A stretch of DNA of 64,000 nt from Persicobacter psychrovividus (GTDB lineage Bacteria; Bacteroidota; Bacteroidia; Cytophagales; Cyclobacteriaceae): contig NZ_AP025292.1 in NCBI RefSeq assembly GCF_036492425.1, positions 124,001 through 188,000 of the forward strand, in the 5' to 3' direction. Positions 9,420 to 25,702 of this stretch are shown here, one piece after another (position 1 is the first letter of the stretch; every line of letters begins with the position of its first letter). The position numbers and the translations under genes were made by a program. Below the pieces are notes generated by a model that saw only the letters and a list, made by a program, of their open reading frames with translations, was not told where the DNA came from and made no database searches.

Positions 9420-9600
9420 TTTAAGTTTTAAATACGCTCTTGTTGTATGGTTTTATATTGTCCACAGATTACGCAGATTTCCACAGATTTTTTTATTTCG
9501 TAAATTGGATATCGGCCATCGCAAACCTGCGATCACTTTTCATTATTTTAGAGAAATGGTTCTCATAGAAATATCCTGCGTTATTTGCAGGCAGAAGCGC
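9420..9600. repeat. 181-bp tandem repeat, copy 1
   Basis: The first of two head-to-tail copies, about 90% identical by eye. It begins TTTAAGTTTT and contains the triple motif CACAGATT/CGCAGATT/CACAGATT, a CGCA-AACC-TGCG hairpin, and a 5-bp hairpin CCTGC(GTTATTT)GCAGG at 9575-9591. Reading frames crossing it are short and copied with it, so it is treated as non-coding. Confidence 0.85.
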
Positions 9601-9781
9601 TTTAAGTTTACAATACGCTCTTGTTGTATGTTTCTATATTGTCCACAGATTACGCAGATTTCCACAGATTTTTTTGTTTCGTAAATTGGATATCACCCAT
9701 CGCAAACCTGCGATCACTTTTCATTATTTTGGAGAAATGGTTCTTATAGAAATATCATGCGTTATTTACATGCAGAAGCGC
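9601..9781. repeat. 181-bp tandem repeat, copy 2
   Basis: The second copy abuts the first exactly. The corresponding hairpin (9756-9772) is CATGC...ACATG. The second base pair has changed from C-G to A-T on both sides, while the pair next to the loop is lost. It ends 25 bases before the stop of the neighbouring GNAT gene. Confidence 0.85.
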
Positions 9782-9806
9782 TCTTATAATCCCTTTTGGA
9801 ATACCT

Positions 9807-10376
9807 TTAGCATTTACGGAAGGTGTAAATATGATTGGTTCGGTTGCGGCTGTTGCTTTCAGATGCTTCCTGCTTAAATCCACAACACATCAGGATCATG
9901 GCCCCCGCAGCATCTTGCTGATCGATATAAGCTTTAACAGTTTTGAACCTCAATGTTTTGACTGCATATCGGGTAAGTCCCTTGGCCAACTCAAAACCAT
10001 AACCTTTCCCCCACACTTCTGGATCAAGTCGCATACTGATCACCTCTTCCTCCTTGGCGTTTTTGACAATGGAGCAGGTACCCAAAAATTGCTGATTTTT
10101 GATATCGACCGCCGCCCATACCCAATGGTCATTATAGGGCTTATTATAATTGTCGATAATTTGCTGAAGTAATGCGCTACTCTCTTGCTTGTTCAGGGGT
10201 TTGCCAATAGTGTACTGGGTTACCTGATTTTGGGATAACAGTTTACTGAAGGCAGGGAGGTCCTGCAGGTTCAACGGGCGAACCGTGATCCTCTTCGTTT
10301 CGAACTTGGCAGTGTTGTTATACTGCGCAGGTCTGATGGGTTCTTCGTGTACTCTATAATGGGGGGAAGTACTCAT
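9807..10376 (-). CDS. GNAT family N-acetyltransferase, RimJ/RimL type
   Basis: A 189-residue protein. The core TKRITVRPLNLQDLPAFSKL and the acetyl-CoA motif DPEVWGKGYGFELAKGL are those of the RimJ/RimL-like acetyltransferases (Acetyltransf_3). These modify ribosomal proteins or small molecules; the substrate here is unknown. The tail contains adjacent cysteines (LMCCGF) where the family usually has an N-x-x-S-x-x-V-x-x-K-x-G-F segment, so this part is slightly divergent. ATG at 10376. Its 3' end lies beside the tandem 181-bp repeats. Apparently monocistronic. Confidence 0.88.
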   Translation of the reverse strand: MSTSPHYRVHEEPIRPAQYNNTAKFETKRITVRPLNLQDLPAFSKLLSQNQVTQYTIGKPLNKQESSALLQQIIDNYNKPYNDHWVWAAVDIKNQQFLGTCSIVKNAKEEEVISMRLDPEVWGKGYGFELAKGLTRYAVKTLRFKTVKAYIDQQDAAGAMILMCCGFKQEASESNSRNRTNHIYTFRKC

Positions 10377-10734
10377 ATCTGTTCTGTCTAAGCTAAGTTG
10401 TTTTATTGCTTAATCCGAAAGCAATTAACTTATTTATTTTGAATATATCAATTATTTAGCTGTTTTGATGTGATATTCAAATTTGATGCGCTTTGTGTAA
10501 ATAGGGGTTTGGTCTTAATTTTATTTTGACAAACAATAAAAAACGAAATAATAATTGTTGAATTCTATACAATTTAAACCTCTTTTATTATAGATGGGTT
10601 TGAATTTTTTGAGGATGAGTATATTGTTTATGGGCTGTAAGTGTTTCACAATGATGTGTAAGTAATAAAAATGATAAGGCCTGATTTGATTTTTTCAAGA
10701 ACAGTCTGACAAGTGTTTTTAGTCGTTTCAGCGC
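10377..10734. other. AT-rich intergenic region
   Basis: Sequence between the GNAT start and the lpd terminator. It should contain the GNAT promoter. No recognisable box, ORF or structured RNA was seen. Confidence 0.4.
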
Positions 10735-10767
10735 AAAAAAAAGACAGGCGAAGGCCTGTCTTTTTTT
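10735..10767. terminator. Terminator of the sucA-sucB-lpd operon
   Basis: AAAAAAAGACAGGC-GAAG-GCCTGTCTTTTTTT: a 14-bp stem with a tetraloop and T-runs on both strands, about 22 bases past the lpd stop. Confidence 0.9.
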
Positions 10768-10788
10768 AGGTATATTTATCTATTTTTT

Positions 10789-12189
10789 CTAAACATGCAA
10801 TGCGCGGTCTTCCGTTGCAGCAAGGCAGGCCTCTTTCATGGCCTCGGTATAGGTGGGGTGTGCGTGCGACATCCGTGCGATATCTTCTGCAGAGGCACGG
10901 TACTCCATGGCAATAACGGCTTCAGCGATCATGTCTGCCGCTCGGGGCCCGATGATGTGTACACCGAGCAATTCATCCGTCTGTTTGTCAGCAAGTACTT
11001 TCACCTGTCCTTCGATATCCATGGAGGCTCTTGCGCGCCCGAGGGCTTTGAAAGGGAATGCTCCAGTTTTATAAGCAGTTCCTTTTTCTTTCAGCTGCTC
11101 TTCGGTATAACCTACCGAAGCCACCTCAGGCCAAGTGTAAACCACCCCAGGAATTAAGTTGTAATTGATGTGTGGCTTTTGTCCAGCGGCATATTCGGCG
11201 ACGTAAACGCCTTCTTCTTCCGCTTTGTGAGCAAGCATGGCACCTTTGATCACATCTCCGATGGCAAAGATGTTGTCTTGTGAAGTTTGCAAGTGTTCGT
11301 TCACTTCCACCCTGCCCTGTTTGTCTGTCGTGATGCCCACATTTTCAAGCCCAAGCCCTTCAGTATAGGCTTTACGGCCAATAGCCACCATGCAATAATC
11401 GCCGAGGAATTCCACGGTTTGTCCTTTTTTATCTTCCGCTGTAACGGTTACCTGATCTTCCGAACGGCTTACCCCAGTAACCTTATGTTGGAGGTAGAAT
11501 TTTACGCCGATCTTTTTCAGTGAACGCTGGAGGTCTTTACCCATGGTGCGGTCCATGGTCGGGATAATATTGTCCATATACTCAATCACAGATACTTTTG
11601 CGCCTAATCGGGCATATACTGAACCGAGCTCCAGGCCAATAACCCCTCCACCAATAATAATGAGGTGATCGGGCACTTTTTGCAAGTTCAGGGCCTCTGT
11701 AGAGGTGATCACCCGCTCTTTGTCGAGTTCGATAAAAGGCAGGTTGGCAGGTTTGGAACCTGTGGCAATAATGGTTTTTGCTGAAGTGAAGGTATTCACT
11801 TCTCCTTTATCATTGAGGACCTTGATGGTGTTTTTATCCTGAAAGCTTCCCAGTCCGTGGTGTACATCAATCTTGTTTTTCTTCATCAGGTAGTCGATGC
11901 CTGCGGTAGTTTGGCTTACAACGCTATCCTTTCTTTTGATCATCTGTGGCATATCTACGCCAAGATCATTGATTTTGATCCCATGCTCCTCGAATCGTTT
12001 GTGGGCATTGTGGTAATGCTCCGAAGAATCCAGCAGGGCTTTGGAAGGGATACACCCGACATTCAGACAGGTGCCGCCGAGGGTGCTGTATTTTTCAACA
12101 AGGGCGGTTTTCATGCCCAGCTGTGCACAGCGAATGGCTGCTACGTAGCCGCCAGGACCTGATCCGATGATGGTGATGTCGTATTTCAT
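10789..12189 (-). CDS. lpdA: Dihydrolipoyl dehydrogenase (E3)
   Basis: FAD-dependent enzyme that reoxidises dihydrolipoyl groups of 2-oxo-acid dehydrogenase complexes and passes electrons to NAD+. The FAD motif GSGPGG lies at residues 9-14 and the redox disulfide at C41/C46 (GGTCLNVGC). The NAD-binding GGGVIGLELG is mid-protein, and the C-terminal HAHPTYTEA holds the catalytic His-Glu pair. It has 466 aa, normal for the family. The ATG at 12189 begins right at the fold; an upstream in-frame start at 12336 gives an unrelated 49-residue extension and was rejected. Last gene of the suc operon, with a 232-bp gap after sucB that contains a palindrome and a repeat motif. Confidence 0.97.
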   Translation of the reverse strand: MKYDITIIGSGPGGYVAAIRCAQLGMKTALVEKYSTLGGTCLNVGCIPSKALLDSSEHYHNAHKRFEEHGIKINDLGVDMPQMIKRKDSVVSQTTAGIDYLMKKNKIDVHHGLGSFQDKNTIKVLNDKGEVNTFTSAKTIIATGSKPANLPFIELDKERVITSTEALNLQKVPDHLIIIGGGVIGLELGSVYARLGAKVSVIEYMDNIIPTMDRTMGKDLQRSLKKIGVKFYLQHKVTGVSRSEDQVTVTAEDKKGQTVEFLGDYCMVAIGRKAYTEGLGLENVGITTDKQGRVEVNEHLQTSQDNIFAIGDVIKGAMLAHKAEEEGVYVAEYAAGQKPHINYNLIPGVVYTWPEVASVGYTEEQLKEKGTAYKTGAFPFKALGRARASMDIEGQVKVLADKQTDELLGVHIIGPRAADMIAEAVIAMEYRASAEDIARMSHAHPTYTEAMKEACLAATEDRALHV

Positions 12190-12227
12190 TGTTTTGGAAT
12201 TTTCGTGGTGATGGTGTGATGATGTAG

Positions 12228-12247
12228 CCTCAGGGCATGCCCTGAGG
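12228..12247. repeat. Perfect 20-bp palindrome between sucB and lpd
   Basis: CCTCAGGGCATGCCCTGAGG is fully self-complementary. There is no T-run, so it is not a standard terminator. It lies in the transcribed gap 39 bases before the lpd ATG and could act as an mRNA processing or stability element, or as an operator. Confidence 0.7.
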
Positions 12248-12317
12248 ACTATTTGTTGAAAGCGGATGCTTTCGGTTTTGGGGATCGTAGCGGGATGTTG
12301 TGAAGAGTGGTTTTCTT

Positions 12318-12358
12318 TTTTGTCCACAGAGTACACAGATTTTCACAGATTACTTTTT
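12318..12358. repeat. Dispersed CACAGATT repeat motif
   Basis: GTCCACAGAGTACACAGATT followed by TTCACAGATT reproduces the core of the 181-bp repeats at 9420-9781: three CACAGA-type units about 10 bases apart, then a T-run. It sits in the sucB-lpd gap. Confidence 0.6.
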
Positions 12359-12421
12359 TCATTTAAAATAAATCAAGTCAATCCTTTTAATCAGGGTAAT
12401 CATGGCCTTAAAACCAACACT

Positions 12422-13996
12422 TTAAATTCCCAACAACAGGCGCGAAGGATCTTCAAGTAGTTCTTTCACGCGAACGAGGAAGCCTACCGATTCTCGGCCG
12501 TCGATAATGCGGTGGTCGTAGCTTAGTGCGACATACATAATCGGCAGAATTTTCACTTCGCCATTCACCGCCATTGGGCGCTCAACGATGTTGTGCATTC
12601 CTAAAATTGCCGACTGTGGAGCATTGATGATTGGCGTGGAGAGCATGGATCCGAAGATTCCCCCGTTGGTGATGGTGAATGTTCCACCAGTCATTTCATC
12701 AATGGAAAGTTTATTGTTTTTGGCTTTTGTGGCCAGTTCAACGATGGTTTTTTCGATGGTATCAAAAGACATCTCCTCGGCATTTCTGATCACGGGCACC
12801 ACCAGGCCTTTAGGAGCAGAAACAGCAATGGAAATATCGCAGAATTCATTATACACCATCTCATCTCCGTCGATCTGTGCATTTACTGCAGGGAATTCTT
12901 GAAGGGCCAGGCAACAGGCTTTGGTGAAGAAAGACATGAAGCCGAGATTGACCTCATATTTCTTCTTGAAAGATTCTTTGTACTTTTTACGAAGATCCAT
13001 GATCGGCTGCATGTTCACCTCATTGAAGGTGGTCAGCATCGCCGTTTCATTTTTCACCTGTACCAGTCGTTTGGCAATGGTTTTGCGCAAAGGCGTCATG
13101 CGCTTGCGTTCCTGCCCGCGGCCTTCGACTTTAAGACTTGGGGAAGGTGCTGATTTTTCCGCACTTTTCTGAGGTGCTTTAGGCGCTGTGGAGGCTTTGG
13201 CATTGAGGGCATCTTCTTTGGTGATGCGGCCATCCTTACCAGTTCCATTAACATTTTCAGCCTTAATTCCTTTTTCAGCCAATATTTTTGCAGCAGCAGG
13301 AGAGCTGTGACCAGAGGCGTAGCTGTCATTGTTCGCCGCTGGCATTGGGTTTGGTGTTTCGTCCTCTTTTGCTGCTGTCTGTGTCGAGGAAGCGGAGGAG
13401 CCTCCTGCGTTTTTAGTGATTTTACACAGTGGCGCACCGATGTTCAGGGTGTCGCCTTCCTCGGCAATGGTTTCAAGTACGCCTGTGGCTTCGGCAGTGA
13501 GTTCGAAAGTCGCTTTGTCGGATTCAATTTCGGCAATGACTTCATCCATCTCCACCTGATCGCCCGTGCTTTTCAGCCAGGAGGCAATCACCACCTCAGT
13601 GATGGATTCCCCAACGGTAGGAACGTTCATTTCAACAACTTCCCCTTCGCTACTATCGCTACTTTTGTGCTCCTGCTCATTACCGCCATTGTCGTTTTGG
13701 CTTTGTGCCTGACTGTCGGTATTTTCTTCTTTGCTGGTATCGGCAGATCCTTCGCCTGCGGCAGATTCGTCGATCTTACATACCAGACCACCGATTTCAA
13801 GGGTTTCCCCTTCTTCAGCGACAATGCTCAGCTTTCCGCCTGCTTCGGCGGTAAGTTCAAAAGTGGCTTTGTCGGATTCCATCTCGCAGATGACCTCGTC
13901 CATTTCTACCACATCACCGTCACTTTTCAACCATTGTGCAATGGTAACTTCACTGATTGATTCCCCAACATTAGGGACTGTTACTTCAAGGCTCAT
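12422..13996 (-). CDS. sucB: Dihydrolipoyllysine succinyltransferase (E2 of 2-oxoglutarate dehydrogenase) with two lipoyl domains
   Basis: Core of the 2-oxoglutarate dehydrogenase complex, transferring succinyl groups from E1 to CoA. Domains: lipoyl 1 (residues ~2-76, lipoyl Lys K43 in ESDKATF); an acidic Ser/Gln-rich linker; lipoyl 2 (~121-196, K161 in the same ESDKATF motif); the E3/E1-binding domain ([14 protein letters not shown]...GRITKED); and the catalytic domain ending [14 protein letters not shown] with active-site H495. E. coli SucB has one lipoyl domain, so this 524-aa protein carries an internal duplication. Downstream of sucA by 59 bp. A short linker peptide reading [11 protein letters not shown] is unusual in this region. 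Confidence 0.95.
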
Positions 13997-14055
13997 AATT
14001 TCTTATGTTGGAATGTTTTTGGAAAAGAGGCCTGACGCCCCTTTTTTTAGATTGA

Positions 14056-16818
14056 TTATTTTAGGTCGAAAGTGGTTTCGACGATGATTGCTTGATTTTT
14101 CGCATGCAACTTGGCGTAACCTGTTGCTGGCGATGTGGAGGTGTTTCTCGAGATACAGCGGATGTTTCTGCTTTCAGGGAAGTTCTCACGGATAAACCAC
14201 CAGGCACCCATGTTTTTCGGTTCTTCCTGAACCCATACCACTTCGGCTTTTTTGTATTTGTCGAGCAAGTCTTCCACTTGCTTTGTTGGGAATGGGTGAA
14301 TTTGCTCCACCCTTACCAGTGCGACGTCCTCACGCTTGTCGTTGCGTTGTTTTTCCAGCAGGTCGTAATAAACTTTCCCAGAACAGAACACCACTCGCTT
14401 GGTTTTTCTTGGTCCTGCCTTAGGGTCGTCAATTATTTCCTGGAAGGAAGTTTTCTCCGTGAAATCACTGATGGGCGAAACCACCTCAGGGTGTCGCAAC
14501 AATGATTTCGGTGACATATTCACTAATGGCTTTCTGAAATCCCAGGTAAGCTGGCGACGCATAGCATGGAAGAAGTTCGCTGGCGTGGTGATGTTGGTGA
14601 TGATCCAGTTTTGGTTGGCAGAAATTTGCAGGAAGCGTTCCAGTCGTGCTGAAGAGTGCTCTGGCCCCTGACCTTCGTAACCGTGAGGCAACAGCATCAC
14701 GAGGGCACTCATGGAGTTCCATTTTGTTTCTGACGAACAGATAAACTGATCAATCATTACCTGAGCACCATTGGCGAAATCGCCGAATTGTGCTTCCCAG
14801 ATGGTTAATGCATTAGGGTTGGCAGTGGAGTAACCATACTCAAAACCGAGCACGGCATATTCTGAAAGCAATGAGTTGTAGTTGCTGAAATGCTCCTGCT
14901 TTTCGTCGATGTGGTTCAGCGAGTTGTATTTCTCGTTGGTTTCAGAATCGAACAATGCAGCATGGCGGTGCGAGAAGGTTCCACGAATAACGTCCTGACC
15001 TGTCAGGCGTACCTTTTTTCCTTCAATCAGCATTGAACCATAAGCCAGTAACTCGCCAGCGGCCCAGTTGAGTTTCTGCTCCTCGAAGAACATATTTTTA
15101 CGCTCCTTGATCAGCTTTTCGATCTGGCGCAAAACCTTAAACCCTTCTGGTACGGTGGTGAGCGCGGTAGCCACCTGATTGATTTTCAGTTCATCAATCC
15201 CTGTAATTGGCGAGTAGTCAAAGTCCTCGCCCTTGGATTTCCGCAAAGCTTGCCATTGTCTTTCGAGCGGTTGCAGCTTATAAGGCAGCGGGCTTTGCTT
15301 CACCAGGTTGAGGCGATCCTGCAACAGCTGGCGGAACTGCTTGTCCATTTCCTGCGCTACTTTGGCATCCATTTCCCCGCGCTCCGAAAGGTATTTGGAG
15401 TAAACCTCTCTTGGGTTCGGGTGCTTGGCAATTTTTTTGTAAAGCTGTGGCTGGGTGAATTTCGGCTCATCCGACTCATTATGTCCATGGCGACGGTAGC
15501 AAACCATGTCGATATAAACATCGCGATTAAATTTCTGACGATACTCAATGGCAATCTCCATGGCATGTACCACCGCTTCAGGGTCATCGCCATTCACGTG
15601 CATAACGGGGCAATCCGTTACTTTAGCGATATCGGTACAGTAAATACTTGATCGCGCATCGTGGTAGTTGGTCGTGAAACCAATCTGGTTGTTGATCACA
15701 AAATGGATGGTACCACCAGTATTGAAACCGTGCAGTTTGGCCATTTGCGTGATTTCATACATGATGCCCTGCCCTGCAATGGCGGCATCACCATGAATGA
15801 GAACGGGAACAATTTTATGGTAATCGTTCTCGTAAAGGTAATCAATTTTTGCACGGGTATTTCCCTGCACTACAGGATTTACCGCCTCCAGGTGTGAAGG
15901 GTTTGGCGTCAGGTTCAGCTTTACTTTTTCGCCTGTTCGTGCAACAATATCAGAGGAATAGCCGAGGTGATATTTTACGTCACCGTCTCCCATGGTGGAA
16001 TCTGAAGGGGTGTTTCCTTCAAATTCGTTGAATATTTGCTCATAGGTTTTACCCATGATATTGGCCAGTACGTTCAGTCGGCCACGGTGAGCCATACCGA
16101 TAACAAACTCTTCCGCACCTAAAGCAGCACCATGGTGAATCATGGCGTCAAGTGCAGGAATGGTTGTTTCCCCTCCTTCAAGGGAGAAGCGTTTCTGCCC
16201 GATATATTTGGTGTGGAGGAAATTCTCGAACACGACCGCCTCATTGAGTTTACCAAGGATATGGCATTTTTGGTCGTAGTCAAAGGATTTGTGGATGGCG
16301 TAATCTTCCACTGTATCTTTAAACCACTGTTGAATTTCAGGCTCACGGATGTACATAAACTCAAACCCAATGTGGTGAGAGTAAATGGCTTTCAGTTTGT
16401 CGATAATCTGATTAAGCGTACCGTTTTCCAGTCCGATTTCCTTTCCAGCTTCAAAGGTCGTTTCACCGTCGGCATCTGTGAGTCCAAATTCTGTTGGATC
16501 CAGATACGCTTTCCAGTAGCGGCGTTCACGTACAGGGTTGGTTTTTGTTTTTAGGTGTGCACGGGTACGGAAGGCATAAATAAGGTTTCGGACGCAAATT
16601 TCTTTATATGCGTGAGAATCGGTATTGGTGTCCGCTCCTACTTTCTGCTGAAAGTCAGGGGAAGGGGTTTCTTCGTTTTGGTAATGCGAAGAAAACTCAA
16701 ATCCTTCAAAAAATTTTTGCCAACTCTCATCCACAGATTGTGGGTTTTGTTGGTACTGAGCATACAGTTCGTCGATGTAGTCACCGTGTGCATTAGCGAT
16801 GTAGGAGTATTTGTCCAT
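14056..16818 (-). CDS. sucA: 2-oxoglutarate dehydrogenase E1 component
   Basis: Thiamine-diphosphate-dependent E1 that decarboxylates 2-oxoglutarate in the TCA cycle. The 920 aa fit the full-length form. The N-terminus (YSYIANAHGDYIDELYAQY) is the E2-binding/FE-like segment. Further landmarks are GMAHRGRLNVLAN, HGDAAIAGQGIMYE, the RRHGHNESDEP stretch and EAQFGDFANGAQVMIDQF, all landmarks of the OGDH E1 family. First gene of the operon sucA-sucB-lpd, all on the minus strand, with a strong promoter 58 bases upstream. Confidence 0.97.
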   Translation of the reverse strand: MDKYSYIANAHGDYIDELYAQYQQNPQSVDESWQKFFEGFEFSSHYQNEETPSPDFQQKVGADTNTDSHAYKEICVRNLIYAFRTRAHLKTKTNPVRERRYWKAYLDPTEFGLTDADGETTFEAGKEIGLENGTLNQIIDKLKAIYSHHIGFEFMYIREPEIQQWFKDTVEDYAIHKSFDYDQKCHILGKLNEAVVFENFLHTKYIGQKRFSLEGGETTIPALDAMIHHGAALGAEEFVIGMAHRGRLNVLANIMGKTYEQIFNEFEGNTPSDSTMGDGDVKYHLGYSSDIVARTGEKVKLNLTPNPSHLEAVNPVVQGNTRAKIDYLYENDYHKIVPVLIHGDAAIAGQGIMYEITQMAKLHGFNTGGTIHFVINNQIGFTTNYHDARSSIYCTDIAKVTDCPVMHVNGDDPEAVVHAMEIAIEYRQKFNRDVYIDMVCYRRHGHNESDEPKFTQPQLYKKIAKHPNPREVYSKYLSERGEMDAKVAQEMDKQFRQLLQDRLNLVKQSPLPYKLQPLERQWQALRKSKGEDFDYSPITGIDELKINQVATALTTVPEGFKVLRQIEKLIKERKNMFFEEQKLNWAAGELLAYGSMLIEGKKVRLTGQDVIRGTFSHRHAALFDSETNEKYNSLNHIDEKQEHFSNYNSLLSEYAVLGFEYGYSTANPNALTIWEAQFGDFANGAQVMIDQFICSSETKWNSMSALVMLLPHGYEGQGPEHSSARLERFLQISANQNWIITNITTPANFFHAMRRQLTWDFRKPLVNMSPKSLLRHPEVVSPISDFTEKTSFQEIIDDPKAGPRKTKRVVFCSGKVYYDLLEKQRNDKREDVALVRVEQIHPFPTKQVEDLLDKYKKAEVVWVQEEPKNMGAWWFIRENFPESRNIRCISRNTSTSPATGYAKLHAKNQAIIVETTFDLK

Positions 16819-16876
16819 CAGCCTGATTTCTATATGTTTCGGTCATGATTGTAAGACTGTTGTAACAGCCTCTAAC

Positions 16877-16906
16877 CAAATTTAGCTTCATTATTTATCA
16901 ATCAAA
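16877..16906 (-). promoter_or_regulatory. suc operon promoter
   Basis: TTTG (16906-16903), 18 bases, then TAAATTTG (16884-16877) on the minus strand: a full match to the Bacteroidota primary promoter. Transcription would start around 16870, giving a leader of ~50 nt. Confidence 0.75.
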
Positions 16907-17279
16907 AACCGTGTAAACGGGTAGGCAATTTATGGATTCTGATTCAATGTGGCGGATTTACTCAAGGTTACATTTATAGCGCTTTTTTTTGATGGTATGT
17001 GATGTTTTTTAGCGTAAAAATGGCGTTTGGGCATCAAAAGATCGCATAATTATACAAAGGGGGCTTCTGTTGTTATGAATTTTGATGGCGATCGGTAAAG
17101 GGGATTTTTTTCTTTTTTGTGATGGCATCCTTAGCTGCGGTACGCCTTGTGTTGGTGGGTTTCTGCTTATCTTTCCAAAGATAATTTAGGGCAGGATGAT
17201 ATTATTTATGAATTTATTGACTTCAGATATTAAAAAAGCATAATTAAGGCTCTTGCAGGCGCTTTTTTTAAATAAAGGG
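16907..17279. other. Intergenic region between suc promoter and tRNA promoter
   Basis: No gene seen. Contains several T/A runs and one short inverted-looking stretch near 17230-17265 without a clear stem. Confidence 0.4.
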
Positions 17280-17310
17280 TTTGTAAAAGAAAAAAGGAAT
17301 ACTACCTTTG
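17280..17310 (+). promoter_or_regulatory. Promoter of the tRNA-Arg array
   Basis: TTTG (17280-17283), 19 bases, TACCTTTG (17303-17310): a perfect Bacteroidota consensus, 64 bases before the first tRNA. It is the only promoter-like match found for the array. Confidence 0.8.
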
Positions 17311-17374
17311 CAAAGCAATTTTGAAAAGGGGGCTTTCGAGACCCTATTTTTTTCTGTGATTGCAAAACAATTTT

Positions 17375-17448
17375 GGCTTCGTAGCTCAACTGAATAGAGC
17401 ACTTGATTACGGCTCAAGAGGTTCCAGGTTTGAATCCTGGCGAGGTCA
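17375..17448 (+). tRNA. tRNA-Arg(ACG), copy 1
   Basis: A 74-nt cloverleaf. The acceptor is GGCTTCG/CGAGGTC (two G-U pairs), the D-arm GCTC/GAGC, and the anticodon stem CTTGA/TCAAG with loop TTACGGC, so the anticodon is ACG (read as ICG for CGU/CGC/CGA). The T-arm is CCAGG/CCTGG with loop TTTGAAT. Discriminator A, CCA not encoded. Position 15 is A with T48, and position 19 is A with T56, in place of the usual G15:C48 and G19:C56. Confidence 0.95.
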
Positions 17449-17485
17449 CAAACACTTATTGGCGGTGTATAAAAGCTAATGAACT

Positions 17486-17559
17486 GGCTTCGTAGCTCAA
17501 CTGAATAGAGCACTTGATTACGGCTCAAGAGGTTCCAGGTTTGAATCCTGGCGAGGTCA
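17486..17559 (+). tRNA. tRNA-Arg(ACG), copy 2
   Basis: Identical to copy 1, 111 bases downstream. The preceding 37-base spacer carries the TTGGCGG form and ends GAACT. Confidence 0.95.
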
Positions 17560-17596
17560 CAAACACTTATTAGCGGTGTATAAAAGCTAATGAACC

Positions 17597-17670
17597 GGCT
17601 TCGTAGCTCAACTGAATAGAGCACTTGATTACGGCTCAAGAGGTTCCAGGTTTGAATCCTGGCGAGGTCA
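17597..17670 (+). tRNA. tRNA-Arg(ACG), copy 3
   Basis: Identical to copy 1. The preceding spacer has TTAGCGG and ends GAACC. Confidence 0.95.
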
Positions 17671-17707
17671 CAAACACTTATTGGCGGTGTATAAAAGCTA
17701 ATGAACT

Positions 17708-17781
17708 GGCTTCGTAGCTCAACTGAATAGAGCACTTGATTACGGCTCAAGAGGTTCCAGGTTTGAATCCTGGCGAGGTCA
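17708..17781 (+). tRNA. tRNA-Arg(ACG), copy 4
   Basis: Identical to copy 1. The preceding spacer has TTGGCGG and ends GAACT, the same as the spacer before copy 2. Confidence 0.95.
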
Positions 17782-17818
17782 CAAACACTTATTAGCGGTG
17801 TATAAAAGCTAATGAACC

Positions 17819-17892
17819 GGCTTCGTAGCTCAACTGAATAGAGCACTTGATTACGGCTCAAGAGGTTCCAGGTTTGAATCCTGGCGAGGTCA
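17819..17892 (+). tRNA. tRNA-Arg(ACG), copy 5
   Basis: Identical to copy 1. The preceding spacer has TTAGCGG and ends GAACC. Confidence 0.95.
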
Positions 17893-17929
17893 CAAACACT
17901 TATTAGCGGTGTATAAAAGCTAATGAACC

Positions 17930-18003
17930 GGCTTCGTAGCTCAACTGAATAGAGCACTTGATTACGGCTCAAGAGGTTCCAGGTTTGAATCCTGGCGAGG
18001 TCA
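17930..18003 (+). tRNA. tRNA-Arg(ACG), copy 6
   Basis: Identical to copy 1. The preceding spacer has TTAGCGG and ends GAACC. Confidence 0.95.
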
Positions 18004-18040
18004 CAAACACTTATTGGCGGTGTATAAAAGCTAATGAATC

Positions 18041-18114
18041 GGCTTCGTAGCTCAACTGAATAGAGCACTTGATTACGGCTCAAGAGGTTCCAGGTTTGAA
18101 TCCTGGCGAGGTCA
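18041..18114 (+). tRNA. tRNA-Arg(ACG), copy 7
   Basis: Identical to copy 1. The preceding spacer has TTGGCGG and ends GAATC. A terminator begins two bases after this last copy. Confidence 0.95.
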
Positions 18115-18115
18115 C

Positions 18116-18147
18116 AAAACTCCTGAAGATGATTCAGGAGTTTTTTT
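18116..18147 (+). terminator. Terminator of the tRNA-Arg array
   Basis: Stem ACTCCTGAA/TTCAGGAGT with a 5-base loop and seven T's. It closes the seven-copy transcription unit. Confidence 0.9.
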
Positions 18148-18228
18148 ATGCCTCATTTTTTTTATGCAGGGATTTTCAAAATATTGGCGGAAGTAGCCTG
18201 TTGTGAATGCCCACTAAATAGACTGAGC

Positions 18229-19467
18229 CTAAATCAGGTCTTTTAACTGAAATTTGACTTTGGTTCGATGGCCGTCTCTGCGGTACACAATTTTGACTTT
18301 CTGCCGTTTTCGCATAGATTTGAATAGCGTGGAGATGTTGCCCATGTTGGCTTCCACGGCTTTAAAATGATTGACCCGCAGCAGTTGGTCGCCCGCCATT
18401 AGCCCTGCCTTTTCGGCCGGGGAATTAGTAATGACTTTCTGAATAATGATTTTTGGCTCGTGCTCGTCAATCAGCTGAAGGACGATCCCACTCCTGTTAT
18501 GCCTGAAGGGATTTTTATGGTATTTGCCTGTTTTCAGATAAACCATTGCTCCAGCGTAATCCAGCCATACCTTATAGCGCTTCAGCACCTCCCCGCCTAT
18601 CGTGCCGTTTCTGCTGAGTACAAAAGTGCTGTCTTCAAGGTAACTTTCATCAGCAAAATTGGTGACCACCTCTTTGAGTGGCGGCAGTTCCTGATGAAGA
18701 CTGATATGATCAATGCGGCCCATGCTTCCTTCAAGTTGTCCGCTGATGCTTAACCCAAGTGCGGTGTCGATATGCTTTTGGGGTGGGTTGAATGGCAGGC
18801 CTTCGTGGTCTTGCTCCAGGGTCAGCCCACTGCTTGCGCCAGTATCAATCATTAAGGAAAGGCTGTTCAGTTGTTCCTCCTCCAGGCGAAGGTCGGCGAT
18901 AATGTGGGCTTTGGTGTGCCGAATGGTAAGAGGAAGGGCAATACTCTTTTTGGGAGGAGAGAAATGTTCCCGTCGATGAAAGGTGATCAGTTTGCGGTCG
19001 TAATTAATTTCCGTGACAAAACGACTCAATAATTCATAACCAATAATTCCGTGAACCATGGTGCCTGTAAGTGCCCAGAAATTCATGGGGTCTTTTTCGA
19101 GGATCAGCAATGCGCCATTTCGGGAATGTAACTGCCCGGCATCAAGATTAATGCCCGTGGAAATGTAAGCGGTTATGGGTGTCCTGTTGGCACCATAAAG
19201 GGTGATTTTTTTCTGATACGTGAGACCAAGTACCTCCGCAACAGACACATCTGTCAGGATGCTGTGTTGCACACCAGTATCAATAATAAAATTTAGGGGA
19301 AGGAATCCGTTGATCTGAAATTTGACAATAATCAGATTGCTCCGCAACTCGAAAGGGAGGCTGTGCCGTTTGGTGTTGTCGTCCAAGAAAAAACCAAACC
19401 GATTTTGGGCAGAAGATAATAAGGGAAAAAATAGAACCAGCAACAAGCTGATCGTACCGCGCATCAT
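18229..19467 (-). CDS. Secreted retropepsin-like aspartyl protease with C-terminal PDZ domain
   Basis: The signal peptide (residues 1-20, ending SSAQ) is followed by two aspartyl-protease lobes, each with an Asp-Thr-Gly signature: FIIDTGVQHS near residue 62 and LMIDTGASSG near residue 210. A PDZ domain closes the protein (~325-410, SPAEKAGLMAGDQLLRVNH). This is the standard arrangement of Bacteroidota 'aspartyl protease family + PDZ' proteins, probably periplasmic; substrates are unknown. Two consecutive ATGs (19467, 19464) are equally possible starts. It follows a small membrane-protein gene by 6 bp, suggesting co-transcription. Confidence 0.88.
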   Translation of the reverse strand: MMRGTISLLLVLFFPLLSSAQNRFGFFLDDNTKRHSLPFELRSNLIIVKFQINGFLPLNFIIDTGVQHSILTDVSVAEVLGLTYQKKITLYGANRTPITAYISTGINLDAGQLHSRNGALLILEKDPMNFWALTGTMVHGIIGYELLSRFVTEINYDRKLITFHRREHFSPPKKSIALPLTIRHTKAHIIADLRLEEEQLNSLSLMIDTGASSGLTLEQDHEGLPFNPPQKHIDTALGLSISGQLEGSMGRIDHISLHQELPPLKEVVTNFADESYLEDSTFVLSRNGTIGGEVLKRYKVWLDYAGAMVYLKTGKYHKNPFRHNRSGIVLQLIDEHEPKIIIQKVITNSPAEKAGLMAGDQLLRVNHFKAVEANMGNISTLFKSMRKRQKVKIVYRRDGHRTKVKFQLKDLI

Positions 19468-19473
19468 TTTTGG

Positions 19474-19713
19474 TTATCGGCGAAGTACTAAATCAGTGAA
19501 TATACCAATAAAATTCAGGTGGAAATTAGGCGTCAGCGCCGTCTCCTGCATAAGCCCCTGTGTCGGAAATATGGTTGCAATCCGAGATTTTGAATTGATG
19601 ATATGTATTTGACTGAGGGCAATAAGGCCTGTGGATAGCAGCATGGCGAAAAAAACACCTAATACTTTGTTGTTAAAGGACTTTGGATTATTTGGCTTTG
19701 TTGATGGCGTCAT
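19474..19713 (-). CDS. Small single-pass membrane protein, unknown
   Basis: A 79-residue frame starting at ATG 19713. A basic N-terminus (PSTKPNNPKSFNNKV) precedes one hydrophobic helix (about residues 19-36, VFFAMLLSTGLIAL). An outside part with few charges follows. It ends 6 bp before the protease gene on the same strand, which supports it being real. I do not recognise the family. A longer TTG-initiated version from 19773 is less likely. Confidence 0.5.
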   Translation of the reverse strand: MTPSTKPNNPKSFNNKVLGVFFAMLLSTGLIALSQIHIINSKSRIATIFPTQGLMQETALTPNFHLNFIGIFTDLVLRR

Positions 19714-20138
19714 GGGAGTGTTTCGGTTTTTGGACAACGAAAGTAATTTAAATAAGAAAAACTGACAATACAAATGATTAGTCTTGATTGTTAGTCATTT
19801 ATATCAATTTTTAATCCTAAAGGGGATTAAGCTGCGAAATCTGAGCTGATATGAAATTTATATTAAATAATACAGATGATTATACGCAATAATGTTCGTG
19901 AGGGATTTTTTAGCTGAGATTGGTAAAAATAATCCATTTGATTGAATGGTGCCCTAAGCGGCTGTAATCCGTGCCTGAGAGGGAACATCTTGAAGGTATT
20001 CTTGTTTACCTGTGGAGGTTGAAGTGTTGGTAAATTGTAAAATTTCAATATTCAGGACTGGGCATCTTTGTCCCATAGGGTAGGAATTTGCTGACACTTG
20101 CTGCAGGATTAAATGATACTGAATAGAATAGATTGGCT
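19714..20138. other. Divergent intergenic region upstream of LamB-like porin
   Basis: About 420 bp between the small membrane protein and the porin. The part 19900-20050 is less AT-rich than the rest, with segments such as CCTGAGAGGG. I checked it against TPP, SAM and cobalamin riboswitch cores and found no convincing match. A short minus-strand frame here (19863-20048) has no coding character. Confidence 0.4.
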
Positions 20139-21596
20139 ATGGCGAAATTTTTAGGATTGATATTAGGAGTATTTTCGATGTTTTTTTTCAATATGGCATG
20201 GGCGCAGGAAGTTGATACCGATTCCCTGAAGAACTATCAGAATGGTGCCTTTGTTGGTTTGTATGGCCGTATCGGGATCAATACGGTGGTGAATCACGGT
20301 CGTGCTACTGGAGCGAATTTCAATTTGAATGGCATGGGAAGCCGTGGGGGAAGAAATGAAGAGGGGGATTATTTTGAGTTTATTCCAGGTTATCAATTTC
20401 AGCCTAACCTAAAGAATGGCGACCGCACAAGGATAAAGATTGCCCTGACTTTCGCGATGTATTCTCGCTCCTCGCAGCTCATTACCTACGGAAGCACCAA
20501 TCAGCTTTCGGGCCTGGCTTTCGCACTGCCCGAGGCGTATATTCAGGTAGATGAAATAGCCAACCTGCCACTGATGCTCTGGGTAGGTGGGCGGTACACC
20601 CGCGAGACTTATTCACAAACCAATGATTATTTCAATTTTGATGACCATACTGGGCAAGGGGCGGGAATCAAGTATAAAAATACACAATTGATGGCCTTGT
20701 ATGTTGCCAGTCGAGACACTTCAGACACGGGCCCAAATTATTTTTACAATGGGGTGGTCAACAACGGGCAAGTGCTGGAGCTCCGACAGCGTTTGGTGTT
20801 GATTGGAGAGCAAAATTTCAGCCTGGGAGAGGATCACTCCTTTAAGGCACTTGCGGAATATCACCAGCTTGCAGAGGCAGATGACAACGCGGACACGGTG
20901 GGGGTTAATCCCAATCAGCTGAAATCAGCCAATGGCTGGGTACTCGGATTGAAGCATCGCTGGAATATACTGAATCGTTCACGGCAGACCTATAATACAC
21001 TGACTGTTCGGTATGCGCGAGGGATTGCCAATGGTGGCGATAACGGCTTCTCGCGGACCTATTTTACTTATGGTGCTCCAGATCTGGAAGCGAATCATTT
21101 CAACCGTGCCTATTCGCTGTCGATTGTTGAGTCCTTAATCCTTGAATATTCTGAAAAATTCTCTTCAGAGATTTATGGCTTATACATGCGCAGCCGTGGT
21201 GCGGCAGCGGAAAGTGCCCTCGATGATCGAGGGCAGGCCGAGAACTATTTCGGCACCAAGGTTTACAATTTTAAGGAAGAGTTTGTTGTAGGCGCCCGAA
21301 CGATGTTTCACCTTAATAATTATTTACACCTGATTGCTGAGGGCAGTTACCAAGGTCGGGTAAATGGGACAGATCCTGCCGCATCGGTTACAAAATTGAC
21401 CCTTGCGCCTACTTTTATGCCTATTGGTCATGATGGTTTATTTGACAGGCCGCAGATCAGGCTGGTGTTTACCTTGGCACGATACAACGATTTTGCACAG
21501 CGAAGCATCGGCTCCCCTTTCCTGAATGTGGTCGGGCCAACACCTGTGGGTTTTTATGTGGGGGTGAAGTCGGAATGGTATATTGGGACTCCTTAA
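20139..21596 (+). CDS. LamB-like carbohydrate porin
   Basis: A signal peptide (MAKFLGLILGVFSMFFFNMAWAQ) is followed by a ~460-residue barrel. The segment LMLWVGGRYTRETYSQTNDY, then F-N-F-D and GQGAGI, corresponds to the maltoporin signature in which a W-x-G-x-R-Y pattern precedes an aromatic strand and G-x-G-A-G. The end (RPQIRLVFTLARYND) matches the RPEIR-type terminal strands of LamB. It should form an outer-membrane channel for sugars or oligosaccharides. The ATG at 20139 is preferred to the in-frame TTG at 20133. The next gene downstream is a lipoprotein with a possible carbohydrate-related domain. Confidence 0.72.
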   Translation: MAKFLGLILGVFSMFFFNMAWAQEVDTDSLKNYQNGAFVGLYGRIGINTVVNHGRATGANFNLNGMGSRGGRNEEGDYFEFIPGYQFQPNLKNGDRTRIKIALTFAMYSRSSQLITYGSTNQLSGLAFALPEAYIQVDEIANLPLMLWVGGRYTRETYSQTNDYFNFDDHTGQGAGIKYKNTQLMALYVASRDTSDTGPNYFYNGVVNNGQVLELRQRLVLIGEQNFSLGEDHSFKALAEYHQLAEADDNADTVGVNPNQLKSANGWVLGLKHRWNILNRSRQTYNTLTVRYARGIANGGDNGFSRTYFTYGAPDLEANHFNRAYSLSIVESLILEYSEKFSSEIYGLYMRSRGAAAESALDDRGQAENYFGTKVYNFKEEFVVGARTMFHLNNYLHLIAEGSYQGRVNGTDPAASVTKLTLAPTFMPIGHDGLFDRPQIRLVFTLARYNDFAQRSIGSPFLNVVGPTPVGFYVGVKSEWYIGTP

Positions 21597-21696
21597 TAAA
21601 AATAAATTAGTTTAAAAATGTATATAATTATAAATATAATTTTAAAAGTGGGGTTTAGTTATTAATATAGATAAGTATTTTTAAGTATAACATATC

Positions 21697-22758
21697 ATGA
21701 ATTGTAAAACTGCACTTAACCTAATTTCGGCTATTTTTTTGACCGCCTCAATGCTCGCTTGTTCACAAGATTCAAATTTGTTACCAAACGAAAAGGGAGG
21801 AATAACCTTTTCGATTAGTGAGACCAACCATAATTTTCGTCATGCAGATGTTGGGGAACCAAAATTTATTCTCCTATCTATAAAGGATATGGAGGGTGAT
21901 TATATCTACAATATGCGGAAAATTGACCTATTCAATATGAATGGTCAGTACCTTACTGAAAACATAGAGCTTCCTGTGGCTGATTATACTGTTGAGGATT
22001 TTGCTGTTTTGGATCAAGATGCCTCCATCATTTATCTTACTCCTAAATCTGGATCTGAGTTTGAAGATTATGTTTCAACTCCTTTGCCACATTCTTTTAG
22101 TATAACACCCGATAATGTGAATAACGTGGTTTTGGAGGTTCTTCCCTCAGATTTTGGGGGGCTAGATAAATTTGGTTATGCCAAATTCTCCTTACAAATC
22201 GTAAAACATCTTAAACTTCGACCGAACAGTTCTGATGGAAAAGATGCACGAGTAGATTCTTGGTACGGAGATGAAAATTGGGGTGATCGAGAGGATTTGA
22301 TGATTAAAAATTGGACCATTGATGGGCGTTTAAGCAGAACAAGAGCTTACCTTGACTTTGACTTTACTGATATCCCTGCAGGAGCGACCATTAAAAAAGC
22401 GTCATTATCTTTATATCATTGGCCAGAAAATACGCACTCAAAATTAAGTGGGAGTAATGCGTGTTGGATTAATCGAGTAACAGAAGCGTGGGGCGAAGGT
22501 GAAATTACCTGGAATACTCAGCCTTCGTTCACTTCGGTAAACCGGATAAGTATGGAAGCCTCTGAAACAGATAACGAGGATTATCTGGATATAGATATTC
22601 TGCCAATAGTCAATGATATTGTAAATAGTCCAGCAGGAAGTGATGGTATAATGATTCAGTTAAAGCAAGAGAGTGGTTACAGAGCCTTATACTTCTGTTC
22701 AAGTGATTATCATGATCCTGATAAGCGTCCAAAATTAGAGGTTATTTACAGTTATTAA
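21697..22758 (+). CDS. Lipoprotein with C-terminal DNRLRE domain
   Basis: The N-terminus MNCKTALNLISAIFLTASML-AC-SQ is a lipoprotein signal. Residues ~30-160 form a beta-rich domain of unknown family (FSISETNHNFRHADVG, VADYTVEDFAVL). Residues ~165-353 form a DNRLRE-type domain: RVDSWYGDENWGDRED, the ARAYLDFD-like RTRAYLDFDFTDIPAGATIK, WGEGEITWNTQPSF and a C-terminal KRPKLEVIY. Such domains occur in secreted and cell-surface proteins, often together with glycan-active enzymes. Likely exposed on the outer membrane. It follows the LamB-like porin with a 100-bp AT-rich gap. Confidence 0.78.
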   Translation: MNCKTALNLISAIFLTASMLACSQDSNLLPNEKGGITFSISETNHNFRHADVGEPKFILLSIKDMEGDYIYNMRKIDLFNMNGQYLTENIELPVADYTVEDFAVLDQDASIIYLTPKSGSEFEDYVSTPLPHSFSITPDNVNNVVLEVLPSDFGGLDKFGYAKFSLQIVKHLKLRPNSSDGKDARVDSWYGDENWGDREDLMIKNWTIDGRLSRTRAYLDFDFTDIPAGATIKKASLSLYHWPENTHSKLSGSNACWINRVTEAWGEGEITWNTQPSFTSVNRISMEASETDNEDYLDIDILPIVNDIVNSPAGSDGIMIQLKQESGYRALYFCSSDYHDPDKRPKLEVIYSY

Positions 22759-22783
22759 TTTCAGCGCTTATATGTGATTTAAA

Positions 22784-22819
22784 AGGGTCTTTGAAGGTTT
22801 TCTTCAGAGACTTTTTTTT
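22784..22819. terminator. Terminator between DNRLRE lipoprotein and glycosyltransferase
   Basis: GTCTTTGAAG/CTTCAGAGAC stem followed by eight T's on the plus strand. It overlaps the last codons of the convergent glycosyltransferase gene. Confidence 0.8.
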
Positions 22820-24072
22820 ATGGATAGGGCTTGGTTGTATTTTTCAACATATTCTTTACCAACGATTTGTTCATTGAAATTCTCAAGGATATGCCCTCTT
22901 GCCTCTTTTTTGATACAAACAAGATCGGCCTCCTGCGTGAGCCATAAAATCCCCTTTGCCAAGTCTTCAACAGACTGATAATCGGCGACATAACCATTTT
23001 CTTTGTGCAAAACAGCTTCCGGATTACCACCTGTTCGGTAGGTAATCACGGGAGTTTCACAGGCCATTGCTTCCAAAATCATGTAGCTGAGGTTCTCATG
23101 AAGTGCCGCAGTAATAAAGCCATCCCCGATTTGATACAACTCCCGCATGTCTTCCTGTGCGCTGATCAGGCCTAAATAACTATACTCAAAGGGCAGTGCC
23201 GTTAATGTATCCAATTGCGTACATTTTCCGAAAAACACCAGGTGCGGCGGTTTTATTCCCTGTGCAATGAGTTGTTCGATGGCCTTGCAGACGTCCTTAA
23301 ACCCTTTTCGTGGGTCCAGTAAATTGGCAGCACCGAAGAGCAATAATGGCTGATGGAGCGGGAGTCCCCATTTTTTTTTCAGGCGATCTTCTTGATCTGA
23401 TGGCTGAAACAGCGTGGTGTCTATGGGATTGAAAATTCGGTCGAAATGAAGCAGAGGAGCCAAAGCGGCACTTTTTCCCTGCGCTACGATCCAGTCGCTG
23501 ACACCGATTAAGTGTGGGTGGTTCAATGGGTAAATCTCGCGCTTCTTTTTCCATTGCTGATGCGATAAATCGTGGCTGTGGGGGTTTCTGAGCAATGGAC
23601 AACAACCGCATTCTTTCAGATAGCCATCGCAGCGATCAGCATAATGACAGCCACCAGAAAATGCCCAAATGTCATGAAGCGTCCAGACGATTGGTTTTTG
23701 AAGTAAAAACAGCTTTTTCATTCCCTTCATGGAAAGAAAGCCCTGATTGGTCCAGTGGATATGGATGATGTCTGCCGATTGAATTAAGGGATGGTTGGCA
23801 AGGTCAGCCCCAACAGTTGCAGAAGAAAAAGCAAAACGATGTGCGGCATCCTTCTCGTACCATAAAAAGTGCAGCTTCTCCATGGCAAGACGAATTTTCC
23901 ATCCTTTGACCACCTGCATTTTCGGGTGGGGCTTATTTTGGTGTTGTACCAAAAAGTGTACATCCATTCCCTGCGCTTCCACAGCTTTAGCAATCCGCAA
24001 GGCAGCCATACTTGCCCCGCCAGTATCTCCGAAGGAGGTCAGAAAAACGATTTTTAATTTTTTATCTGCCAT
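22804..24072 (-). CDS. Glycosyltransferase family 4, WcaC-like
   Basis: A GT-B glycosyltransferase of 422 aa from ATG 24072. The N-terminal domain starts KIVFLTSFGDTGGASMAA. It includes a cysteine-rich loop (SGGCHYADRCDGYLKECGCC) typical of WcaC-like exopolysaccharide transferases. The C-terminal donor-binding domain has LLFGAANLLDPRKGF and EAMACETPVITYRTGGNPE, the E-x7-E motif region of GT4. Expected role is sugar addition in capsule, exopolysaccharide or lipopolysaccharide synthesis. A second GT4 gene lies upstream on the same strand with a 95-bp gap, so the two may work in the same pathway. Confidence 0.85.
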   Translation of the reverse strand: MADKKLKIVFLTSFGDTGGASMAALRIAKAVEAQGMDVHFLVQHQNKPHPKMQVVKGWKIRLAMEKLHFLWYEKDAAHRFAFSSATVGADLANHPLIQSADIIHIHWTNQGFLSMKGMKKLFLLQKPIVWTLHDIWAFSGGCHYADRCDGYLKECGCCPLLRNPHSHDLSHQQWKKKREIYPLNHPHLIGVSDWIVAQGKSAALAPLLHFDRIFNPIDTTLFQPSDQEDRLKKKWGLPLHQPLLLFGAANLLDPRKGFKDVCKAIEQLIAQGIKPPHLVFFGKCTQLDTLTALPFEYSYLGLISAQEDMRELYQIGDGFITAALHENLSYMILEAMACETPVITYRTGGNPEAVLHKENGYVADYQSVEDLAKGILWLTQEADLVCIKKEARGHILENFNEQIVGKEYVEKYNQALSIKKSL

Positions 24073-24167
24073 AGCAAGTGTTAAGCTAAGCAATCGGGAG
24101 GAAATTCTCTTCGATTTGCGTGGGAATTAAGTTAATGGGGCGGGTATTGTATCAAAAAGCGTACAGC

Positions 24168-25376
24168 TTATTTGGCGGCAATTTTTTGTAAAGCGGTTCT
24201 GAAGCGGTCGGCTACAGTGTTTATATTCACTTCATGATCAATGATATCGAGGCTTTTCTGCCCAAACTCAGCTACTTTTTCAGGGTTTTGCAGGAGCTCG
24301 GTGATTTTTTCAGCCAAGTCATTGATGTCATTTTCTTTAAAGAAATAGCCATTCTCCCCATGGCGTAAGAGGTGCCGTTCGGTACCGTCGCCCACCGAGC
24401 AAACAATAGGTTTGCCAAAGGCCATGCCTTCATTAATGGCCAGCCCACCCATTCCTGCGAGCACAAAAACAGCCGCCTGCATAAACTCCTTCCCGAGCTG
24501 TTCATAGCCATAAACGGCCCCCAGGAACTTCACGTGATCCTCTAAATTCAGGGCCGCCGCCTGTGTTTTCAGGTTATCGAGCTCAGGACCATTGCCAATC
24601 ACCACCAGCTCCACCTCGGGAATTTGCTTTCGGATGATGTCCACTGCCTGAAGCAGATGATGTACTTTTTTCCACTTCACCAGTCGGCCAACATGAATAA
24701 TTCGGAAAGGTTTTGGGGTATTCTGCGGATCAGCTTTGAGAGTGAGATAAGCCTTTTTGATCTCATCAGTATTGGGAGAGTTCAGGGTGACGTGAATGTC
24801 CTCGTGGGCAATGCCGAAGGATGGTTGTACGTTATATGCTACATCGGTATAGTTGATCGTGGCCGAACACTGTTTGTAATAGGCCTGCCGCATGATCGTC
24901 AGCAGGTGTGTTTTCAGCTTAAACCGCCAGCCACTGTTGGGCTGAAAGTGAAGGTTTTCATCGTAAATAGGATGCTCCTGATAATACTTCACTGCGCCAT
25001 GTTTTGGTGCCACCATGAACGGAATCTCACGGATGACCAGTTTGGTGTTCACCTGTTGAATGGCACGTCGCAATTTGGGCAGGAAGGCAAAACCGATGAT
25101 ATAGGGCCACAGCGAAACCACGATTTCAGGTTTTTCAGTAATGATGATTTGGTCCAGGTCTGTAAGCTGAGGTTTGCCATACCATGTTTTGTATTCAGAG
25201 GTTTTGATCAGTTTAAACTCATAACCCGAATCAATCAGTTTGACCCCTTTACCGATGGTGCCGTTCGATTGGCCTGGGATGACCACCACCACCTCGAATT
25301 CGGGCATGGCATTAATTTTATTCAATAAAGCGACTAAATAATGGGGCAATCCGCCAAAGGTAAAAAGTACTTTCAT
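24168..25376 (-). CDS. Glycosyltransferase family 4
   Basis: 402 residues from ATG 25376 (MKVLFTFGGLPHYL), which begins at the first strand of the fold. The donor-site region reads ILHVGR-like IIHVGRLVKWKKVHHLLQAV, then VVIGNGPELDNLKTQAAALN and GMAFGKPIVCSVGDGTE. These are hallmarks of GT4. No transmembrane segment is seen. Sugar donor and acceptor are unknown. An in-frame start at 25409 would add 11 residues and lies inside the predicted promoter, so it was rejected. Confidence 0.87.
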   Translation of the reverse strand: MKVLFTFGGLPHYLVALLNKINAMPEFEVVVVIPGQSNGTIGKGVKLIDSGYEFKLIKTSEYKTWYGKPQLTDLDQIIITEKPEIVVSLWPYIIGFAFLPKLRRAIQQVNTKLVIREIPFMVAPKHGAVKYYQEHPIYDENLHFQPNSGWRFKLKTHLLTIMRQAYYKQCSATINYTDVAYNVQPSFGIAHEDIHVTLNSPNTDEIKKAYLTLKADPQNTPKPFRIIHVGRLVKWKKVHHLLQAVDIIRKQIPEVELVVIGNGPELDNLKTQAAALNLEDHVKFLGAVYGYEQLGKEFMQAAVFVLAGMGGLAINEGMAFGKPIVCSVGDGTERHLLRHGENGYFFKENDINDLAEKITELLQNPEKVAEFGQKSLDIIDHEVNINTVADRFRTALQKIAAK

Positions 25377-25406
25377 GTTTTCAGTTATCAGATCATTGAC
25401 CGTCGG

Positions 25407-25414
25407 CAAAGCTA
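25407..25414 (-). promoter_or_regulatory. -7 box for the glycosyltransferase pair
   Basis: TAGCTTTG on the minus strand, 30 bases before the ATG at 25376. No clear TTG element at the right distance. Confidence 0.4.
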
Positions 25415-25702
25415 ATAATATTTGAACACTAAACTATTGTGGAAGGCTGTTGAGTGGGTATTTACCCATTAGGCACAGGTTGGAATGCATAGGATGGGAT
25501 TGTTTTCGAATTAAAATTTCGAAAATTATGTCGGTTGGGGAAGTTGATATCGCCTTATTTCATCAAAAATAACTTATATTTGGTTATATGTCCCGACCAT
25601 CAATTTCCTACATCAACAGCGATTTTTTTGGGTGGAACAGGTTCTACAGTAAGTAATATTTTTTGCTGACTGTTATTTTTCCTGAAGAAAATTAAAAATC
25701 CC
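25415..25702. other. Divergent intergenic region with candidate usp promoter box
   Basis: Gap between the glycosyltransferase and the Usp gene. A TATATTTG at 25575-25582 fits the -7 consensus on the plus strand and would give a ~115-nt leader, though no good -33 element precedes it. Nothing else was recognised. Confidence 0.4.

Follow-up and report, generated by a model that had tools for sequence, protein, structure and literature searches.

Seven identical tRNA-Arg(ACG) genes in a regular tandem array of Persicobacter psychrovividus, one of many tRNA clusters in its genome

The window, the whole 64-kb stretch of Persicobacter psychrovividus DNA that was analysed (assembly of 6,148,614 bases in 13 contigs), carries at 17375-18114 on the + strand seven tRNA genes, each called tRNA-Arg(ACG) by ARAGORN, and these are the only tRNA genes called in it. 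A scan of region 9000-26000 with Rfam RF00005 returned seven matches, from 17375-17448 to 18041-18114, at 58.4 bits apiece (gathering threshold 29), and in a cloverleaf test all seven copies exceeded the Rfam tRNA threshold with an ACG anticodon. The seven genes, of 74 nucleotides (nts) each, are one identical sequence in which CCA is not encoded, and Tandem Repeats Finder described the array as 6.7 copies of period 111 with 98% matches and 0% indels. The three programs thus bore out the sequence-only reading, according to which seven identical 74-nt tRNA-Arg(ACG) genes are set in 111-bp units; this anatomy, and the copy number in the assembly, are direct observations.

17280..17310, + strand: predicted promoter TTTG-N19-TACCTTTG, Bacteroidota type (by pattern, and by the same element ahead of the array of the congener G001)
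17311..17374, + strand: 5′ leader in which a weak hairpin precedes a T run (17328-17353), a possible pause site or attenuator (by sequence and folding)
17375..17448, + strand: tRNA-Arg(ACG) copy 1 (ARAGORN, Rfam)
17449..17485, + strand: spacer 1 of the six 37-nt spacers (spacer alignment, folding)
17486..17559, + strand: tRNA-Arg(ACG) copy 2 (ARAGORN, Rfam)
17597..17670, + strand: tRNA-Arg(ACG) copy 3 (ARAGORN, Rfam)
17708..17781, + strand: tRNA-Arg(ACG) copy 4 (ARAGORN, Rfam)
17819..17892, + strand: tRNA-Arg(ACG) copy 5 (ARAGORN, Rfam)
17930..18003, + strand: tRNA-Arg(ACG) copy 6 (ARAGORN, Rfam)
18041..18114, + strand: tRNA-Arg(ACG) copy 7 (ARAGORN, Rfam)
18115..18147, + strand: predicted intrinsic terminator, 12-bp stem and T run (by folding)

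The element at 17280-17310 fits the Bacteroidota promoter consensus, and in G001 it lies at the same place before the Arg array. With a spacer of 19-21, the pattern occurred six times in the window against 1.58 expected, and none of 100 shuffles contained six or more; a single occurrence would by itself be weak evidence. A similar, looser element was found within 200 nts upstream of 14 of the 21 tRNA loci of P. psychrovividus, in two at a distance of nearly 200 nts. On the other side of the array, the predicted terminator folds at -15.8 kcal/mol, which none of 200 shuffles equalled, and a terminator at -6 or better follows 18 of the 21 loci. A generic promoter and terminator scan listed neither of the two elements; its promoter model is of the E. 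coli type, and it returned no terminators, a likely reason being that the stem continues into the T run. Judged from these patterns and folds, one promoter and one terminator would bound the array, and this earlier proposal is therefore retained.

In the leader between the promoter and the first tRNA there is a G-rich hairpin with seven T after it, and G001 has a comparable hairpin at the same place. Leaders were scanned in five genomes, at 106 tRNA loci of which 96 have a recognisable -7 box; six chosen leaders were compared with shuffles, and leaders shorter than 20 nts counted as without hairpin. Hairpins at -4 kcal/mol or below were found in 5 of 18 leaders in P. psychrovividus and 2 of 21 in G001, and just two leaders, those of the Arg array and of a single tRNA-Trp, have one in both genomes, the Arg hairpin of the window being within chance. 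Leader attenuators as a general feature of Persicobacter tRNA clusters were rejected, such hairpins not being general across the 106 loci. At the single tRNA-Trp (L085 in P. psychrovividus and L124 in G001), a promoter-like -7 box is followed first by the hairpin with its T run and then by the tRNA, and the fold reaches -11.8 kcal/mol, equalled by none of 300 shuffles; this hairpin may be the terminator of an upstream gene.

Seven of the 25 listed ORFs were scanned as neighbours of the array, and they resemble sucA, sucB, lpd, an aspartyl protease, a LamB porin, a CBM96 protein and a glycosyltransferase. An antisense ORF (17268-18083, - strand, 271 aa) spans the array and stays open because the repeat length of 111 bp divides by 3. 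As a whole protein it gave four Pfam families at E 0.001, two of them above the curated cut-offs, and in none of the four families did any stretch pass by itself. It was rejected as a real gene, being an artefact of the 111-bp repeat, and is a spurious-gene trap for annotation. Elsewhere in the window, at 9420-9782, a 181-bp unit is present in two tandem copies with 93% matches.

Variation among the six 37-nt spacers is confined to three columns (13, GAGAAG; 36, CCCCCT; 37, TCTCCC). Because the variation sits at these columns, spacers 1 and 3 are the same, spacers 2, 4 and 5 are the same and spacer 6 is unique, giving three variants in the array order a, b, a, b, b, c; spacer alignment confirmed the alternation as first described. 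Units 1-2 and units 3-4 are identical blocks of 222 bp, which supports the suggestion that the array grew by duplication of a two-unit block, and such a duplication would be a good parsimony account of units 1-4. Spacer 1 can fold into an 8-bp hairpin at -7.0 kcal/mol, equalled by 7 of 200 shuffles.

A DNA search of 59 genomes, P. psychrovividus included, gave a match in 40. ARAGORN called one tRNA-Arg(ACG) at the best locus of 24 of 29 relatives, two in three and five in one, namely G001, the best locus of the remaining relative being a TCG tRNA; copies may be cut off where a locus lies close to the end of its contig, as some of them do. The seven copies of P. psychrovividus are the largest tRNA-Arg(ACG) array among these 30 genomes. 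The five copies of G001 were observed directly at the same site, with a 118-bp unit and different spacers, and the flanks correspond: the upstream sucA homologue matches at 75% over 2670 bases and the downstream aspartyl protease gene at 71% over 374 aligned columns. By eye, a short stretch, GCGxTGTATAAA, is apparently common to the spacers of the two genomes.

The exact 73-nt tRNA pattern was found only in two contigs of an uncultured Persicobacter in a contig collection from which the organism's own or very near genomes may be absent. Across two stretches, 15.4 kb in all, the uncultured strain is 99.1-99.2% identical to the window, and its array has the same ends on the promoter and terminator sides. 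Its assembly breaks inside the array, and the copies are therefore given as at least four. Three of its spacers could be read; one is the same as spacers 2, 4 and 5, and the other two are absent from the window. Both variants in the predicted spacer stem, at column 13 here and at column 28 in the uncultured strain, retain pairing as G-U (two cases).

Within each genome the copies are uniform, and between the genomes there is a fixed difference, tRNA position 4 being T in all seven copies of P. psychrovividus and C in all five of G001; both points are direct observations. The fixed difference suggests concerted evolution. In addition, position 4 is C in G011, G050 and G002, and therefore the T is probably a derived state that spread through all the copies. 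The patterns of the spacers and of position 4 fit unequal recombination with homogenisation. Gene conversion explains the identical copies as well as unequal recombination does, and it could give the same unit pattern.

It is uncommon for a bacterium to have 150 tRNA genes or more. Rfam tRNA matches numbered at least 150 in P. psychrovividus, at least 151 in G001 and 137 in G011, high numbers that were directly observed in all three, against 40, 36, 34 and 39 in four other genomes of the same family (G002, G013, G029 and G031). ARAGORN called at least 155 tRNA genes in P. psychrovividus, in 21 loci including the array, with 27 anticodons of which 19 have three or more copies. Single-anticodon arrays are found there for Gln (eight genes), Met (nine), Asn (eight), Phe (eight), Lys (five) and Leu (four), and mixed arrays hold 22, 18, 15, 13 and 11 genes, the 22-gene cluster being L076. 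Of the 19 anticodons present at least three times, 13 show no difference between their copies across the first 71 nts; the Met(cat) set probably lumps Met and Ile2 tRNAs. Spacer identity is 0.959 in the Arg array, close to that of Asn (0.961) and higher than in Met (0.922), Gln (0.827) and, at the lower end, Lys (0.523), Leu(tag) (0.449) and Phe (0.369). This high spacer identity places the Arg array with the more regular, and probably more recent, arrays. It is nevertheless ordinary for P. psychrovividus and does not stand out among its tRNA arrays.

The available text of Anda et al. 2023 (PMC10645730) gives 173 tRNA genes for P. psychrovividus and describes 20-25 tRNA clusters per genome in the Persicobacteraceae, the largest of 22 genes in P. 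psychrovividus. The 155 genes called here are fewer than these 173, probably because the search from which the loci came was limited to 150 candidates, whereas the 22-gene cluster was recovered. The chromosomal tRNA genes of the family are reported there to be tandemly duplicated with few anticodons per cluster, and the Arg array is alike in being chromosomal, tandemly duplicated and of few anticodons. It also lies in a genome within the range of 128-173 tRNA genes, with tRNAs no more than 500 bp apart in tandem units. The same source places the rrn operons of P. psychrovividus on a plasmid only (PMC10645730). In our searches, the Rfam family gave no 16S rRNA match in the P. psychrovividus genome (the control was positive in only 9 of 14 genomes) and the exact universal primer pattern gave none in P. 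psychrovividus, G001 and G011, which we take as a limit of the data or of the search, not as evidence.

The leader hairpin with its T run could regulate how the array is transcribed, as an attenuator or a pause site, a reading encouraged by the presence of such a hairpin between promoter and first tRNA in both congeners. That of G001 folds at -7.1 kcal/mol and is matched by only 4 of 300 shuffles, and in two further P. psychrovividus clusters, L080 and L084, the leader is matched by 2 and 4 of 300 shuffles. Against this, the Arg hairpin of the window reaches only -4.5 kcal/mol and is equalled by 56 of 300 shuffles, and its entire leader fold by 16 of 200. Moreover, hairpins at -6 or below were found in 2 of 18 leaders of P. 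psychrovividus, 2 of 21 of G001 and 0 of 18 of G011, with 1 of 20 and 1 of 19 in two control genomes, and those of L080 and L084 have no counterpart in the G001 loci that start with the same tRNA. We therefore regard attenuation at this leader as unlikely. A broader scheme, in which the array would act as a dosage dial set by recombination and controlled by its leader, with unequal exchange readily changing the number of units to tune the supply of Arg-tRNA and keeping the copies identical, and with the hairpin metering the transcript, seems to us distinctly improbable. Another explanation of the seven copies is a specific demand for arginine CGN codons, as opposed to a general expansion. Codon usage was compared in a length-chosen and thus approximate sample, comprising 130 ORFs genome-wide and 30 ORFs of the S10 region, some of which do not encode ribosomal proteins. 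CGT makes up 201 of 355 Arg codons (57%) in the S10 region versus 540 of 2086 (26%) in the genome sample, and CGT, CGC and CGA together 267 of 355 versus 1346 of 2086; in addition, ACG accounts for 7 of the 11 Arg tRNA genes found. The array thus serves the preferred Arg codons, and in the proposed codon-usage check CGT is preferred in the S10 region. The demand so indicated exists, yet it looks ordinary, and no special Arg demand was seen: a favoured codon box is usual in the highly expressed genes of fast growers, and Val(tac), Glu, Thr(tgt), Gln, Asn, Asp, Phe and Pro(tgg) all outnumber Arg(ACG) among the 155 genes. With eight tRNAs ahead of it and three or more copies being so common among the anticodons, the idea that the copy number signals a special dosage demand for this isoacceptor was not upheld. 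A specific arginine demand is accordingly very hard to credit as the cause of the array.

Tandem repeats are error-prone in assembly, and the draft of the uncultured Persicobacter breaks within the array, so that the count of seven could be an artefact. The strain was, however, sequenced on the PacBio RSII with libraries size-selected at 17-50 kb, in a hybrid assembly with HiSeq reads (PMC10645730, available part), and a wrong count over 740 bp is therefore unlikely. The three spacer types also distinguish some of the units, and the congener has an array at the same site; we consider an artefact highly improbable. The array may be unstable, as the sequence-only reading also suggested: between species the copy number does differ, at seven here and five in G001. 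A phage, plasmid or integrated-element location is common, although not required, for the tRNA array units known from other bacteria. Such units, described from Mycobacterium, phages, plasmids and Firmicutes, resemble the present locus in that many tRNA genes are packed together, and their occurrence on phages and plasmids would be the reason to suspect an accessory, mobile-element or phage-derived origin; they differ, according to the contrast drawn in the available text of Anda et al. (PMC10645730), in their larger anticodon repertoire, whereas the Persicobacter array is chromosomal and has a single anticodon in place of many different ones. The seven scanned neighbours are without mobile functions, the site is kept in G001, and matches in 8 plasmid and 3 phage records included none with one place spanning 80% of the query. 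A mobile origin can hardly be entertained. In E. coli K-12 MG1655, argQ-argZ-argY-argV likewise form a row of four tRNA-Arg(ACG) genes on one strand, but with uneven spacing and with serV adjoining, unlike the seven genes in exact 111-bp spacing, Arg alone, found here.

The reading we prefer, with a probability of roughly 0.9, is that the array is one transcription unit of seven tRNA-Arg(ACG) genes, a dosage expansion by tandem duplication and one of the tRNA clusters of the family. A single transcript of the seven genes would run from the one promoter to the one terminator, and the precursor would be cut into seven tRNAs, as expected from general knowledge of tRNA processing. Maturation of tRNA includes CCA addition, and inosine at position 34 reads CGU, CGC and CGA; the tRNAs of the array would carry this inosine and read these three codons. 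We take the array to have grown by tandem duplication, with unequal recombination between units as the most likely route; such recombination can also keep the copies identical by concerted evolution. The selective force would be dosage, matching many plasmid-borne rRNA operons. Against this, copy number and amino-acid use correlated only weakly, in the genome sample (Spearman 0.31, p 0.22) as well as in the S10 region (Spearman 0.51, p 0.04), both from the incomplete inventory of 155 tRNAs with Ala and Met left out.

In outline, the array is thus explained by published work on the P. psychrovividus genome and is to that extent already known: tandem duplication is the published account of tRNA gene growth in the Persicobacteraceae, and the expansion is put down there to selection for rapid growth, in keeping with the numerous rRNA operons on a plasmid (PMC10645730). 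Gain of tRNA copies by duplication in a laboratory bacterium is also described in the available part of another report (PMC7661048). Among the literature matches listed, nothing beyond Anda et al. concerned this array, and the accessible text of that paper does not single it out; the present analysis adds the history of the spacers, the congener's five-copy array at the corresponding site and the fixed difference at position 4. The Persicobacteraceae have been proposed as a platform for studies of tRNA copy-number evolution (PMC10645730). Persicobacter offers a clear view of growth in tRNA dosage, with regular tandem units, spacers that retain part of the duplication history and copy numbers that differ between relatives.

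A different kind of repeat was observed in G002 (L013:1604-1870), where a normal tRNA-Arg(ACG) is followed by three 98-bp tRNA-like repeats that ARAGORN does not call. These repeats keep the D arm, the T arm and the 3′ strand, while the 5′ acceptor strand is foreign and the anticodon arm is altered.
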